Positions 16,401-23,515 of a DNA stretch of 36,447 bases are shown here, in pieces (position 1 is the first letter of the stretch; every line of letters begins with the position of its first letter). The position numbers were made by a program, and so were the translations under genes. The notes beneath the pieces are model-generated. The model was not told the DNA's origin. It did not search any database and saw only the letters and a list, made by a program, of their open reading frames with translations. Source of the DNA: Planctomycetota bacterium. GTDB lineage: Bacteria > Planctomycetota > Planctomycetia > Gemmatales > Gemmataceae. The stretch covers positions 1 to 36,447 of the forward strand of contig VGZJ01000023.1 in NCBI GenBank assembly GCA_016872595.1, in the 5' to 3' direction.

Positions 16401-17861
16401 CTACTTCTTCTTCGGGTCCGGTTCCTTCGTGACGATGCCGGGGCTGGCGTTGAACGCCTTCACCGTCGTGCCGTCGCTCACCTTCCATACCGCGACGCTG
16501 CCGTCGTAGCTGCCGCCGGCGACCAGCTCGCCGTCCGGCGAGAACGCAACCGTGTACACGTAGTCCGTCAGGCCCGATAGCGTCTTGCCCGCGGCCAGCG
16601 TGTCGGCGTTCCACAGGCGAACCGTCTTGTCGGCGCTGGAGGTCGCTAGCATCGGCTGCTTCGGGTTGTAGGCGATCTTGAACACCTCGTCGCCGTGCCC
16701 GGCGGCGTTGCGGACCTGCTTGCCCTCGCCGTTCGGCTTCCACGTGCGGAGTTGCCGGTCCGCGCCCACAGAGAACCCGGCGCTCCCGTCGGCCTTCACC
16801 GTCACGCCGTACACGATGTTCTGGTGCTCGGGGAACGTCACGATGGACTGCTTCTCCTTCAGGTCCCACACCTTTGCAGTCTTGTCGCGGCCCGCGGTCA
16901 CGAGGTACTTGCCGTCGGCGGAAATGCCGCAGCCGAGTACCCAGTCGGCGTGGTTCTCGACCGTCTGCATCAGCGCGGCCTTGTCCAACCCGGCGCTCAG
17001 ATCGAACACGCGCACCGCGCGGTCGCAGCCGCCGGCGGCGAGGGTCTTGCCGTCCGGCGTGATTGCGAGGCAGAGAACCGAGTCTTCGACGTCGAACAGG
17101 TGCTTCACGAGCACTGCCTTATCATTCACTCCGTCGAGAACTTCGACGCCGCCCTCGTCTTTGCCCTTTGCGGCGATGTTGTATACGCGCACGTCGCCCT
17201 CCTGACCGGGGCGACCGCCGGCCACGGCCAGCTTGCCGTCGGGCAGGAACGCTATGCCGTAGGCGCGCTCGGCGCGCGTGTAGACGCGCTTGACCAGCTT
17301 CGCGGTCGCCACGTCCCAAATGGTCAGTTCATGGTGCCCGCCGACGACGAGTTGCTTGTTGTCCGGGGTGAACGCGAGGGCGTTCACGATGATCGCGAAC
17401 GGGTACTTCGCGGGCGGCACCGGCGGCTTCCAGCGCACGCGCAGTTCCTTCACGAGGTCGGCCTTCGGGTCGAGGCCGGCGTCGAGCTTCGCCCCGTCCT
17501 TAATCCACTGCGCGATGACGCCGGCCTTGTCCTTCGGCACCGCTTCGCCCTTGTCGCGCGGCGGCATCCGGCGCTGGTCAGCGGTCACGATGAGCGAGTG
17601 GAACTCGCTCGTCTCCGGCTTACCGGGCGTCACCGGGTCGCCGTTCGCGCCGCCGGCCCGAATCTTCTCGTAGCTCGTCATGTCGTACTTGCCGGACTTT
17701 TTCTTCGTGTCGTGGCACGCGAAGCAGTTCTCCTTCAGGATCGGGGCCACGTCGTTTATGAAGCTGACGGGCTTGCCCGGCTGGGCGGAAGCGAGTTGCG
17801 GCGAGGCGAGCCACAGTACGGCGGCGCAGAGCGTGCCCACGGGGTATCGGCAGAGGAGCAT
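16401..17861 (-). CDS. Exported c-type cytochrome fused to WD40 repeats
   Basis: The 486-residue protein has a signal peptide (cleavage near ASA-QPG, residue 26). A single-heme planctomycete-type cytochrome c domain follows, with C46-FA-C49-H50 as heme site and a plausible Met ligand in RRMPPRDKG. The rest is a beta-propeller of about seven WD40 blades with typical endings such as ELTIWDVA, AVRVFDLS, TAKVWDLK, TVRLWNAD and SVAVWKVS. This fusion is common in planctomycetes. Electron transfer or a sensory scaffold outside the cytoplasm is inferred; the partner is unknown. Confidence 0.88.
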   Translation of the reverse strand: MLLCRYPVGTLCAAVLWLASPQLASAQPGKPVSFINDVAPILKENCFACHDTKKKSGKYDMTSYEKIRAGGANGDPVTPGKPETSEFHSLIVTADQRRMPPRDKGEAVPKDKAGVIAQWIKDGAKLDAGLDPKADLVKELRVRWKPPVPPAKYPFAIIVNALAFTPDNKQLVVGGHHELTIWDVATAKLVKRVYTRAERAYGIAFLPDGKLAVAGGRPGQEGDVRVYNIAAKGKDEGGVEVLDGVNDKAVLVKHLFDVEDSVLCLAITPDGKTLAAGGCDRAVRVFDLSAGLDKAALMQTVENHADWVLGCGISADGKYLVTAGRDKTAKVWDLKEKQSIVTFPEHQNIVYGVTVKADGSAGFSVGADRQLRTWKPNGEGKQVRNAAGHGDEVFKIAYNPKQPMLATSSADKTVRLWNADTLAAGKTLSGLTDYVYTVAFSPDGELVAGGSYDGSVAVWKVSDGTTVKAFNASPGIVTKEPDPKKK

Positions 17862-17953: not shown

Positions 17954-19365
17954 CTACCCCGGCGACGGGCCGAGCAGGTTCATCGACTGCAACTTGGCGC
18001 GGAGCGTCGTCCGCGAGATCCCGAGCAACTCGCTCGCCTGCACTTGGTTGTTGTTGACGTGGCGCAGCACCTCCGCGAGAGCGACGCGATCCACCTCCAC
18101 GATGACCGTGCGATAGATGTCCGGCGCGCCGGTGGCGAGCAGGTCGCGTACGAACCGGACCACGTCGAGCGGGGCGGCGGTGCCCGGCGGTGCGGTCGGG
18201 CCGCCGCGGAGCGCCGCCGGGAGGCAGTCCGCGGTCAGCACGTCGCCCACGGCCTGAATGACCGCGTACCGGATGGCGTTCTGAAGTTCGCGCACGTTGC
18301 CGGGCCAGTCGTGGGCCTGTAGGACGCGCAGCGCGTCCGGGGCCAGCCCGGTCACGTTCTTGTCGAGCGCGCGGTTCGACACCCGCAGAAGTGGTCCGCT
18401 AGTAGCGGCACGTCGTCCTTGTGGTCGCACAGCGCCGGAAGTTCGATGGTCACGCCGTTGAGTCGGTACAGCAGGTCGCCGCTGAACGTCTCAGCCGCGA
18501 CCAGTTCCGGCAGCTTGCGGTTGGTGGCGGCAATGACGCGCACGTCGGTGGCGATGGGGTCGCGCCCGCCGACGCGCTCGAACTGCTGGTCTTGCAGCAC
18601 GCGCAGCACTTTGGCCTGCGTCGCGGGGGCCATGTCGCCGATCTCGTCGAGGAACACGGTGCCGCCGTTGGCCTGCTCGAACTTGCCGACGCGCTGCCGG
18701 TCGGCCCCGGTGAACGCGCCTTTCTCGTGCCCTAACAGTTCGCTCTCCAACAGCCAGTCGGGGATCGCGGCGCAGTTCAGCGCCACGAACGGCTTGTCGG
18801 CACGCTTGCTGTGCTGGTACAGCGCGCGGGCCACCAGTTCCTTGCCGGTGCCGCTCTCGCCCAAGATGAGGACGGTCACGTCTTGCGGGGCGACGCGGCC
18901 GATGGCCTTGTACACCTCTTGCATGAGGGGCGAGCGCCCGACGAACTGGTCCGCGCCGCCCTCGACCGGCCCTTCGGCGAACACCGCGGGCACGTGCTGC
19001 ATCCGGCGCAGTGCGACCGCGCGCCCGACCACGTCGCGCAGTTGGTGCAGATCGACCGGCTTCAGCAGGTACTCGAAGGCCCCGCGCTTCATCGCCTCGA
19101 TTGCGGTCTCGCTGGTGGCGAACGCGGTGATGACGACCACGGGGAGCCGCAGGTCGAGAGCCTTGATGCGCTCGAACAGTTCCAACCCGCTCAGGTCGGG
19201 GAGCCGCACGTCTACGACGACCGCGTCCGGGCGCAACTGCGGTAACAGCGCGAGCGCCTGCTTCGCGGTCTTCGCGGTGGCGACCGTAAGCGCCTCGGTC
19301 TCTAGGCCCGCGCGGAGCGAGTACAGCAGGTTCGGCTCGTCGTCCACGATCAGGAGGGTTGCCAC
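17954..19365 (-). pseudogene. Sigma-54 (NtrC-type) response regulator, frameshifted
   Basis: The N-terminal receiver (D8, D9, phosphoacceptor D52, T80, K102) is followed by a sigma-54 AAA+ domain with Walker A GESGTGKE (169-176), the sigma-54 contact loop GAFTGA (216-221) and Walker [12 protein letters not shown]-terminal Fis-type helix-turn-helix (VNNNQVQASELLGISRTTLRAKL) ends it. The frame breaks after [14 protein letters not shown] at about 18388. Restoring one G on the plus strand there (CC on the coding strand) gives [16 protein letters not shown] and an unbroken protein of 470 residues. As sequenced, the AAA+ C-terminus and DNA-binding part are out of frame. Sequencing error or real decay are both possible. 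The start is GTG, 8 bp after the kinase stop. Confidence 0.85.
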
Positions 19366-19373
19366 GGTGTACC

Positions 19374-19781
19374 TCAGTGGGCGAGCGCGGGGCGCGCCGG
19401 CGGGAGCGCGAGGGTGAAGGCCGCGCCCTTCGAGCGCGCGACCGCGGTCAGGGTGCCGCCGTGCGACTCGGCGATCCGCCGGCACACGGACAGGCCCAGC
19501 CCGACGCCGGTTTCCTTCGTACTCACGAACGGCTCGAAGATGGTGTCGCCGAGGCCCGCGGGCAGGCCCGGCCCGTCGTCCTCGACGGTCAGCGTCAGCC
19601 CGCTGTCGGGGCGCGGGGCCGCGACGGACACGCGCACCGCGCCGCCGCCCGGCTGCGTATCGAGCGCGTTGAACAGGAGATTGTAGAGCACTTGGCGGAG
19701 CTGGTTCGGGTCGGCGGCGGCGCGCGCGCCGGGGTCCGCGTCCACCGTCACCGTCACGCCCTGTCGTGCAGGTCGGCGCAC
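19374..19781 (-). pseudogene. Histidine kinase, C-terminal ATPase domain only
   Basis: Only the HATPase_c domain is left: N-box [17 protein letters not shown]1 box DDGPGLP, F box [10 protein letters not shown] and G2 box [18 protein letters not shown]. The sensor, dimerisation domain and phosphorylated histidine are missing. Homology ends at about ARQGVTVTV (near 19763), where the sequence becomes the antisense of an otsA fragment, so the first residues of the open frame (MRRP) are not kinase. It precedes the response regulator by 8 bp, so the two formed a two-component operon. Genomic rearrangement or misassembly is likely. Confidence 0.85.
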
Positions 19782-20374
19782 CGAGCCGCACGCACATCCC
19801 CGCGTACCGCGACCTGAACGACGAGGTCGCCGCGCTCACCGACCGGATCAACTGGGAGCATGGCACAGACGACTGGAAGCCGGTCGTGTTCCTGAACGAA
19901 CACCACGACCCGGAAGACAATTTCGTCCTGTACCGCACGGCCGCGGCGTGTGTCGTTAGCTCGCTGCACGACGGCATGAACCTCGTGGCGAAGGAGTTCG
20001 TGACGGCCCGCGGCGACGAGCGCGGCGCGCTGGTGCTGTCGAAGTTCACCGGTGCGGCCCGCGAACTGCCGGACGCGGTGCTCGTGAACCCGTTCGACGT
20101 GGACGAGATGGCCGACGGCCTGTTCGCCGCGCTGACAATGAGCGCCGCGGAGCAGGAGCGCCGGATGCGCCGCATGCGCGCCCAAGTCGACGACTGCAAC
20201 ATCTACCGCTGGGCCGGGATGCTGCTGTCAGAAGTTGGGAAGCGCGTGCCGGACCCAGCCCCGGAGCCGATGGCGGAAGAGGTCGACGACGAACCGGAGC
20301 GCGAACCCGACGACGCGCGCCTCGCGCGCTGGCAGTACCTCGCCCAACCGAGCTTCGCCGGCATGGGCCTGTAG
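19766..20374 (+). pseudogene. otsA: Trehalose-6-phosphate synthase (GT20), N-terminally truncated
   Basis: OtsA joins UDP-glucose (or another NDP-glucose) to glucose 6-phosphate. This 202-residue piece matches the C-terminal half only. It begins [17 protein letters not shown] and continues through [50 protein letters not shown] and [16 protein letters not shown]. The N-terminal Rossmann domain with the acceptor site is absent, so it cannot be active alone. The break is at about 19763, the same point where the opposing kinase ends. The C-terminus has an acidic/proline tail (PDPAPEPMAEEVDDEPEREPDD). GTG at 19766 is only the first possible start. Confidence 0.85.
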
Positions 20375-20380
20375 CGTGCC

Positions 20381-20482
20381 TTACGCTTCCAGTTCCTTGA
20401 TCCGGTCGCGGATGTCGAGCAGACTCCGCGGCCGGCCGCCGGGATCGGTGTCCACGCGCGGGTCCACGATCCGGGTTCGCGC
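20381..20482 (-). pseudogene. Possible C-terminal remnant of an unidentified gene
   Basis: The minus-strand frame ends RTRIVDPRVDTDPGGRPRSLLDIRDRIKELEA before a TAA at 20381, 6 bp from the convergent otsA stop. The sequence has an ordinary protein-like composition and a good terminal helix, unlike the arginine-rich stretch before it. No family is recognised and there is no plausible start with a ribosome-binding site. It may be the end of a gene cut off upstream, or chance. Confidence 0.3.
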
Positions 20483-20512
20483 TTGACTTCGCGCGCGGAG
20501 CGAGCGACGATA
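20483..20512 (+). promoter_or_regulatory. Possible promoter of the DUF1549-DUF1501 cluster
   Basis: TTGACT (20483-20488) matches the -35 consensus at five of six positions. A weak -10 candidate (GACGAT) begins 17 bp later. It lies about 100 bp before the ATG at 20587 and is the only -35-like site I see upstream of this cluster. Confidence 0.3.
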
Positions 20513-20586
20513 GTAGCATTCCTGCCTGAACGCCGGCCGTGCGGTCCCGCGGCCGGTTCGCTGCCACCCCACAAGGACCGCCCGCG

Positions 20587-22212
20587 ATGCCTGAATTCTC
20601 CCGGTCCCTCGCGGCCGTTGCGCTCTTGGCGCTCGCCGGTCCCGCGCGCCCCGCGGACCCGCTGCATGCCCGCATCGACAAGCACATCGCTGCCGGCTAC
20701 GGCGCGAACGCCAAGCAAGTCGCGCCGCGAAGCGGCGACGACGAGTTCTTGCGCCGCGCGTACCTCGACCTCATCGGCACGACGCCTACGGTCGCTGAAC
20801 TGAACGAGTTCCTCGCGGACTCGGCCAAAGATAAGCGCGCGAAGCTCGTCGATAAGTTGCTCGCGTCGCCCGGTCACGCCCGCCGCATGGCGTGGCACTT
20901 CGACGTCATGCTTATGGAACGCGGCGCCGACGCGAAGGTTCCGCGCGCCGCGTGGGAAGCGTACTTGCTCGCCGCGTTCACCGAGAACAAGCCCTACGAC
21001 GTGCTCGTGCGCGAGTTGCTTTCCGCCGACGGCGCGGACCCCAAGACCCGCCCCGCGGCGAAGTTCTTTCTCGACCGCAACCTCGAGCCCCATGCGGTCA
21101 CGAAGGATATCGGCCGCATCTTCCTCGGCCGCAACATGCAGTGCGCCCAGTGCCACGACCACCCGACCATCGACGACTACAAGCAGGCCGACTACTACGG
21201 CATCCAAGCGTTCTTGAACCGCTCGTTCCTGTTCCCCAACGCCAACGCGCCGGCCGCCGTCATTGCGGAGAAGGCGGAGGGCGATGTCAGCTTCATGAGT
21301 GTGTTCGACAAGAACAAGAAGCTCAACTCGACCGCGCCGCGGATGCCCGGCGGCAAGCCCGTCGAGGAGCCGAAAGCAGAGAAGGGGAAGGAGTACAAGG
21401 TCGCGCCCGCGAAGGACGTGAAGCCGGTGCCGACGCACTCGCGCCGCGAACGGCTCGCGGGCGCGGTCACGAGCACCGAGAACAAGGCCTTCGCGCGGAA
21501 CATCGTAAACCGCATGTGGGCCATGATGATGGGCCGCGGGATCGTTCACCCGGTCGACCTCGACCACGGCAACAACCCGCCGTCGCACCCGGAACTGTTG
21601 AACGAACTGGCCGCGGAGTTCGTCGCCCACAAGTACGACCTCAGGTGGCTCGTCCGCGAGATCGCGCTGTCTGATTCGTACCAGCGCTCCAGCGAGTCCC
21701 GGCCCGGACTTGATGACCCGTCGGCCGATCGCTATCTGGTGGCGATCATGAAGCCCCTGACCGCGGAGCAGTTCGCCTACGCCGCGATGCAGGCCACCGG
21801 CCACACCGACGCCGAGCGCGCCGCGCTCGGGGCGAAGGGCACCGAGCAACAACTCGACGCCCTGCTCGCGCCGCGCATGGGGCCGTTCCGAGGGATGCTG
21901 GGCCGCGGGGTCGATCCGACCGCGGACGCCTTCACCGCGACACTCGACCAGACGCTCTTTGTGAAATATGGATCGGCCGTTCGCACACTACTTACGCCGC
22001 GCGCCGGCAACCTGACCGACCGCCTGAACAAGATTACCAACCCTGACGCGGTCGCCGACGAACTGTTCGCCGCGGTGCTGTCGCGCCGCCCGACCGCAGA
22101 CGAGCGCAAGGACGTGGCCGACGCGCTCAAGACCACCACTGACCGCGGCAAGACGATCAACGAACTGGTGTGGGCGCTCGTGGCGTCCGCCGAGTTCCGA
22201 TTCAACCACTAG
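20587..22212 (+). CDS. Exported DUF1549/DUF1553 (PSCyt2/PSD1) protein
   Basis: A 541-residue protein of the family expanded in planctomycetes. It has a signal peptide (cleavage near residue 21, ARPAD), an N-terminal DUF1549 domain (DEFLRRAYLDLIGTTPTVAE, then CAQCHDHP with C186, C189, H190) and a C-terminal DUF1553 domain (RMWAMMMGRGIVHPVD, NPPSHPELLNELAAEF, LIRRPTADE-like LSRRPTADE). The CxxCH suggests heme or metal binding. It lies 13 bp before the DUF1501 gene with a good AGGA site between, so the two form an operon. The biochemical role is not established. Confidence 0.9.
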   Translation: MPEFSRSLAAVALLALAGPARPADPLHARIDKHIAAGYGANAKQVAPRSGDDEFLRRAYLDLIGTTPTVAELNEFLADSAKDKRAKLVDKLLASPGHARRMAWHFDVMLMERGADAKVPRAAWEAYLLAAFTENKPYDVLVRELLSADGADPKTRPAAKFFLDRNLEPHAVTKDIGRIFLGRNMQCAQCHDHPTIDDYKQADYYGIQAFLNRSFLFPNANAPAAVIAEKAEGDVSFMSVFDKNKKLNSTAPRMPGGKPVEEPKAEKGKEYKVAPAKDVKPVPTHSRRERLAGAVTSTENKAFARNIVNRMWAMMMGRGIVHPVDLDHGNNPPSHPELLNELAAEFVAHKYDLRWLVREIALSDSYQRSSESRPGLDDPSADRYLVAIMKPLTAEQFAYAAMQATGHTDAERAALGAKGTEQQLDALLAPRMGPFRGMLGRGVDPTADAFTATLDQTLFVKYGSAVRTLLTPRAGNLTDRLNKITNPDAVADELFAAVLSRRPTADERKDVADALKTTTDRGKTINELVWALVASAEFRFNH

Positions 22213-22225
22213 CAGGAACCGAAAA

Positions 22226-23515
22226 ATGCTGCCCTGCAACTACGCCTGCAACACCGCCGACCACGCGACCACGCGCCGGGCGTTCCTCGGCGCGGGCTTG
22301 GGCGCGACCGCCGCGCTCGGCGCGGACGGGTTCGCCAACCCCGTGCACGCGGCCGAACTGAAGAAGGCGCAGAAGCGCGTGTTGGTCATCTTCCTCGAAG
22401 GCGGCGTAAGCCAGCTCGAAACGTGGGACCCGAAGCCGAACACCGACACCGGCGGGCCGTTCAAGAGCATCGCGACCAGCGTGCCCGGCACGCGCGTCTG
22501 CGAACTGCTCCCGCTGGCCGCGAAGCAGATGCACCGCATCGCGCTCGTGCGCAGCCTGAACTCGCAGACCGACGACCACGGCGTCGGCCACAACGTCATG
22601 CTGACCGGGCGCAAGATGGAACCCGGCATCGTGTACCCGCACCTCGGCGCGGTCGCGGCGCGGCTCTTGAACTCGAACGCCAACGCGCTACCCGGCCACA
22701 TCCGCATCGTGCCGAAGGGCGGCAGCGGGTTCAACGGCGCGGACGCGACGTTCTTGGGGCCGAAGTTTGCCAGCGTCGGCCTCGGCGACGGCAAGCCGCC
22801 CGCGGACCTGTTCCGCCCCGCGAACCTCACCCCCACCGAAGACGAGCAGCGCGACGCCTTCCGCAAGCGCCTCGACGAGCGGTTCGCCAAGTCGCGCAAG
22901 AGCGCCGCGACCGACGCCTACACCGAATCGTTCACGCAGGCCGAGCGCGTCGTGAAGCAGGCCGAAGTGTTTGACATCAGCAAGGAACCGGAGAAGGTCG
23001 CGGACAAGTACGGTCGCCACGACTTTGGCCGCCATATGCTGCTCGCGCGCCGGTTACTCGAAGCCGGCGTCACCTACGTCAAGGTGTCGCACTCGAACTA
23101 CGACACGCACCACGAGAACTTTGACTTTCACATTGAACAGCTCGCGGAGTTCGACAAGCCGTTCAGCGCGCTGCTCGACGACTTGGCGGACCGCGGGATG
23201 CTCGACAGCACGCTCGTCGTGGTGATGAGCGAGATGGGCCGCACGCCGAAGATCAACGACCGCTACGGCCGCGACCACTGGGGCCGCGCGTGGAGCGTCG
23301 CGCTCGCCGGGGCAGGCATCAAGGGCGGCGCGGTCGTTGGCAAGACCAACGCCACCGGCACCGCCGTCACCGGCCGCGAGGTCTGGACCGGCCACCTGTT
23401 CCACACCTACCTGCAAGCGGTCGGCCTCGATTCGACCAAGAACTTCTACCCCAACGAGCGCCCGGTCCCCATCGCCGACCCCAAGACCGCGGCCATCTCC
23501 GAGGTGTTGGCCTGA
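22226..23515 (+). CDS. DUF1501 protein with Tat-type signal
   Basis: The 429-residue protein begins with a twin-arginine-like export signal (T16-R17-R18-AFLGAGLGATAALGADGF). The alkaline-phosphatase/sulfatase-like DUF1501 fold follows: VLVIFLEGGVSQLETWDPKP, VRSLNSQTDDHGVGHNVMLTG, LDSTLVVVMSEMGRTPKIND and GRDHWGRAW. Conserved Asp/His residues in these segments probably bind metal. DUF1501 genes usually follow DUF1549/DUF1553 genes, as here. The substrate is unknown; exported hydrolase activity is inferred. Confidence 0.9.
   Translation: MLPCNYACNTADHATTRRAFLGAGLGATAALGADGFANPVHAAELKKAQKRVLVIFLEGGVSQLETWDPKPNTDTGGPFKSIATSVPGTRVCELLPLAAKQMHRIALVRSLNSQTDDHGVGHNVMLTGRKMEPGIVYPHLGAVAARLLNSNANALPGHIRIVPKGGSGFNGADATFLGPKFASVGLGDGKPPADLFRPANLTPTEDEQRDAFRKRLDERFAKSRKSAATDAYTESFTQAERVVKQAEVFDISKEPEKVADKYGRHDFGRHMLLARRLLEAGVTYVKVSHSNYDTHHENFDFHIEQLAEFDKPFSALLDDLADRGMLDSTLVVVMSEMGRTPKINDRYGRDHWGRAWSVALAGAGIKGGAVVGKTNATGTAVTGREVWTGHLFHTYLQAVGLDSTKNFYPNERPVPIADPKTAAISEVLA

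Follow-up and report, generated by a model that had tools for sequence, protein, structure and literature searches.

The question raised by this locus is how a histidine kinase gene and otsA (trehalose-6-phosphate synthase), lying on opposite strands, came to be cut short at one and the same point. The window analysed is a stretch of 36,447 nucleotides from a Gemmataceae genome (contig VGZJ01000023.1), and the first-pass annotation, made from its sequence alone, had read the junction as an inversion, deletion or translocation breakpoint, or else as an assembly misjoin. The simplest and best explanation, and probably the correct one, is one internal deletion of ~2.5 kb in a decaying two-component system/otsA module. 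The features of the locus are listed in Table 1.

Table 1. Features in and around the truncated module, with the evidence used to assign them.
Position	Strand	Feature	Evidence
16401..17861	-	PSCyt1/WD40 protein, left flank of variable site; upstream DNA conserved to ~17940	Pfam, synteny, upstream conservation
17954..18387	-	C-terminal portion of response regulator, with AAA lid and Fis HTH; frame differs from that of the N-terminal part	Frame and domain comparison
18388..19366	-	Response regulator, N-terminal part (receiver and sigma-54 activation domain), 1-nt frameshift at ~18388	Frame and domain comparison
19374..19763	-	Remnant of histidine kinase, retaining HATPase_c but neither the sensor nor the HisKA part	Pfam, comparison with relatives
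19763..19764	.	Probable deletion junction, 0-1 bp shared; equivalent DNA in relatives 2453-2772 bp (2453-2537 in G011, G017, G003, G013)	Alignment
19764..20374	+	otsA (trehalose-6-phosphate synthase, GT20) remnant, profile ~313-471	Pfam, own-assembly search, relatives
20381..20572	-	Spurious ORF ('third gene end'); its start half lies over conserved leader DNA of PSCyt2	Pfam, conservation
20539..22212	+	PSCyt2/PSD1 gene, right flank	Pfam, synteny
22226..23515	+	DUF1501 gene, right flank	Pfam, synteny

The junction and the two truncated genes

Alignment with nine intact loci of relatives, the same nine that were used for the spacing measurements, places the breakpoint at 19763|19764, where the kinase and OtsA fragments abut on opposite strands; the join reads ...CACGCCCTG on the kinase side and TCGTGCAGGTCGG on the otsA side. 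The Pfam limits agree with this position, as HATPase_c is matched at 19374-19781 of the window (minus strand; profile positions 2-110, E 3e-26) and Glyco_transf_20 at 19766-20371 (plus strand), the latter over profile positions 315-471 of 473 and thus over its last third only. When the window's own assembly was searched, the best GT20 hit began at 19763. The earlier observations that both homologies end at about 19763, and that each gene has lost its front at this one junction, are therefore confirmed.

A functional sensor histidine kinase has HisKA, with its phospho-accepting His, in addition to HATPase_c. Both domains are present in the G011 orthologue; the kinase frame of the window gave HATPase_c alone, with no Pfam match to HisKA or to a sensor part. 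A functional OtsA has the full GT20 domain of ~470 positions, of which the G011 and G003 orthologues cover 2-471 and the window ~313-471.

The base before the join is T in every otsA measured and G in the window, and on the kinase side the base following CTG is never T in the measured relatives (nine loci in each case), so the two ends share 0-1 bp. No repeats able to drive recombination or assembly collapse, and no repeat family, were found at the junction. The kinase remnant has 0 changes at otherwise invariant residues and the GT20 part of OtsA has three in 86, the junction residue among them; the deletion is thus either recent or not real.

Arrangement of the genes in related genomes

The annotation had proposed a search of Gemmataceae for intact homologues and their neighbours. 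This recovered 12 loci in which the kinase and otsA are both intact and lie side by side as divergent neighbours (G011, G017, G003, G013, G025, G028, G026, two in G005, G012, G010 and G008). In these loci the response regulator-kinase operon is on one strand and otsA on the other, in the relative orientation seen in the window; in G003 the regulator is on a separate contig that begins inside the kinase. In the nine measured loci, 2453-2772 bp separate the points that are fused in the window; in the four of them that carry the window's type of kinase (G011, G017, G003 and G013), the distance is 2453-2537 bp. The piece absent from the window corresponds exactly to the kinase front, the intergenic region and the otsA front, so that an orthologous arrangement which is intact in relatives is truncated here at a single join, as in a pseudogene cluster formed by deletion.

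In trees, the response regulator and kinase of the window group with the linked G003/G011/G017 type (regulator clade 99*). Trees of the short C-terminal OtsA fragment, for protein and for DNA, do not separate stand-alone from kinase-linked descent. At another locus (L163, G009:C126, 6275-6602) just the first ~110 kinase residues are left beside an intact otsA, in two frames, and the kinase side there has apparently decayed independently.

The missing halves were sought in the window's own assembly, which comprises 6.8 Mb in 590 contigs and is 100% complete by estimate. Its single GT20 match is the window fragment itself, and the OtsA front of G003, used as a query, had no match anywhere in it. 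The kinase front has no orthologue in this assembly, which holds paralogues only, the best being 34% identical over part of the query.

The response regulator

The response regulator adjoining the kinase is split into two frames (Table 1), as a single base is missing beside TTC TG. NtrC-family regulators carry a receiver, a sigma-54 activation domain and a Fis-type HTH in one frame; all three are present in the window, distributed over two. Ahead of the frameshift, eight of the 133 columns that are invariant in other loci are changed. Counted over the same columns, 11 other loci have 0-1 changes each, and two diverged paralogues of G002 have 6 and 27. The frameshift and these changes constitute an independent second lesion, which supports decay. 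No obvious split was seen in the remaining window genes scanned with Pfam, and the lesions therefore appear to be concentrated at the module.

The flanking genes

Conservation of the flanks stops at ~17940 and starts again at ~20475, and the WD40 and PSCyt2-DUF1501 genes flank differing cargo among relatives. The site is empty in G001 and G004, where WD40 is directly beside PSCyt2-DUF1501. In G012, G008 and G010 it is occupied by an otsA that stands alone, without HK-RR, and has a sigma-54-like promoter of its own; PSCyt2-DUF1501 follows after a gap of ~1.5 kb. The OtsA fragment of the window is 85-87% identical to these copies over the common part. An AlaRS tree pairs the window's genome (G000) with G018 (100/99) and then with G006 (94/97). 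The sister species G018 has an acetamidase/formamidase gene on the PSCyt2 side, an unrelated frame on the WD40 side and no module at the site; its assembly is only ~65% complete, yet contains the DNA upstream of PSCyt2. As no such otsA is present at the site in G006 either, the window looks like a stage in module loss. None of the relatives compared has an intact RR-HK-otsA module in the WD40-PSCyt2 interval. For joint loss of the regulator and otsA, the genus tree offers just two independent contrasts, too few for a conclusion.

The first-pass annotation also placed a possible third gene end at 20381-20482, and took it to suggest that the sequence to the right of the junction derives from a different locus. 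This interval has no Pfam match that would indicate a conserved third gene. The sole conserved part of the ORF (20381-20572) is ~20475-20572, which is leader and promoter-side DNA before the PSCyt2 gene and is shared with G018, G006, G004, G001 and G008. The suggested foreign origin rests on this spurious ORF; otsA is likewise followed by PSCyt2-DUF1501 in G012, G008 and G010.

Origin of the junction

Under the deletion model, the ancestor would have carried an intact response regulator-histidine kinase pair (minus strand) back to back with otsA (plus strand) between the WD40 and PSCyt2 genes, with sigma-54-type promoters in the few hundred bp of intergenic DNA common to the two units. A single non-homologous deletion of ~2.5 kb, with 0-1 bp shared at its ends, would then have run from mid-kinase to two-thirds into otsA. 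The fronts of the two genes would have gone with both promoters, and the regulator, kinase and otsA would all have become pseudogenes. The loss was presumably a single event, the promoters were presumably sigma-54 dependent, and the loss may have been tolerated because there was no further need for OtsA-dependent trehalose synthesis. As none of the relatives compared has an intact module at the exact site, otsA is alone there in G012, G008 and G010, and the RR-HK-otsA module of G003 adjoins EngA, two events are possible.

The strongest rival, which we nevertheless consider unlikely, is a rearrangement between two loci, in which otsA stood alone at the WD40-PSCyt2 site and an RR-HK fragment of a second module was joined in, replacing the otsA front. 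The stand-alone copies in G012, G008 and G010, with their sigma-54-like promoter and no kinase side, would provide the starting point, their identity to the window OtsA is in keeping with it, and the short OtsA fragment is poorly placed in trees; however, at least two joins would be needed, the native RR-HK/otsA order and orientation would have to arise by chance, and the window OtsA shows no specific grouping with the stand-alone copies in the DNA tree.

Somewhat less likely again is an assembly artefact, the ~2.5 kb being present in the organism and skipped in the draft, perhaps because of a chimeric read or a variant from a minority strain. Such an error would suit a draft in 590 fragments and the well-conserved look of both remnants, but the junction is without a repeat and shares 0-1 bp, so k-mer collapse is not expected; furthermore, the missing DNA is on no other contig, and the adjoining regulator is independently damaged. 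The chance misjoin that had been suspected is unlikely, given that order and orientation are the native ones of 12 related loci.

An inversion or translocation breakpoint uniting two unrelated genes would account for two truncations at one point, but is highly improbable, as the genes lie side by side in the 12 related loci, oriented to each other as they are here, and the missing halves were found at no other place in the assembly. Inversion, translocation and chance misjoin are all disfavoured, as none would restore the native order and orientation; from the annotation's list of breakpoints it is the deletion, with loss of both fronts, that fits. The feature is real in the sequence, and in kind it is ordinary gene decay.

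Sigma-54 motifs and the possible regulation of otsA

A strict sigma-54 (-24/-12) pattern, GGCA(C/T)N5TTGC, was applied to 11 intact kinase-otsA intergenic regions (L042-L049 and L051-L053). The motif occurs once towards otsA in all 11 and once towards the kinase in nine of the 11, and the two are ~40 bp apart, facing one another. Mononucleotide shuffles gave a mean of 0.14 hits in total, against 20 intergenic sites, and these sites make up 20 of the 25 pattern hits in 146 kb of these loci. There is no hit in the window, in keeping with the loss of both promoters. By domain scan the regulator belongs with the sigma-54 activators (NtrC type), which, together with the paired motifs, suggests that the two-component system would control otsA in the intact relatives. 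Upstream of otsA at L162 (G002), the kinase-directed motif is kept (GGCACCGCTGTTGC) and no kinase of that type is beside otsA.

No paper was found in the literature that connects planctomycete otsA with a sigma-54 two-component system, and the main text of a 2025 sigma-54 regulon survey that covers Planctomycetia does not mention trehalose (PMC12316311). It is quite possible, and is put forward tentatively, that in Gemmataceae a dedicated NtrC-type two-component system commonly governs otsA through a pair of sigma-54 promoters facing one another in the common intergenic region, and that this unit enters and leaves the WD40-PSCyt2 site and is lost as a whole. If this is true, the window is a snapshot of such a loss.

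Trehalose metabolism

The window's genome encodes no OtsB and no other GT20 gene, and trehalose made via the OtsAB route should therefore be lacking. Across the genus, trehalose-6-phosphate phosphatase (PF02358) was found in only three of 19 genomes and an otsA homologue in 12 besides the window's; given this rarity relative to otsA, most members of the genus must dephosphorylate trehalose-6-phosphate otherwise. The locus is thus of interest as lineage-specific gene loss, and the comparison indicates a candidate regulatory unit of Gemmataceae that can be tested, made up of otsA, a pair of facing sigma-54 motifs and a two-component system of NtrC type.

Comparison with known systems

Compared with OtsA proteins (GT20, PF00982), the window fragment is 66-87% identical to the intact enzymes of the genus and family, but the front two-thirds are gone, which rules out a working enzyme. 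Relatives have the full domain sets of an NtrB/NtrC-type two-component system, whereas the window keeps HATPase_c and a split regulator, its kinase being without the sensor and HisKA parts and its regulator frameshifted ahead of the lid and HTH. The locus also resembles bacterial pseudogenes that arise through internal deletion and frameshift, as two truncated genes meet at one junction with a frameshifted third gene adjoining; the sole oddity is that a divergent pair and its promoters would have been disabled by one deletion.
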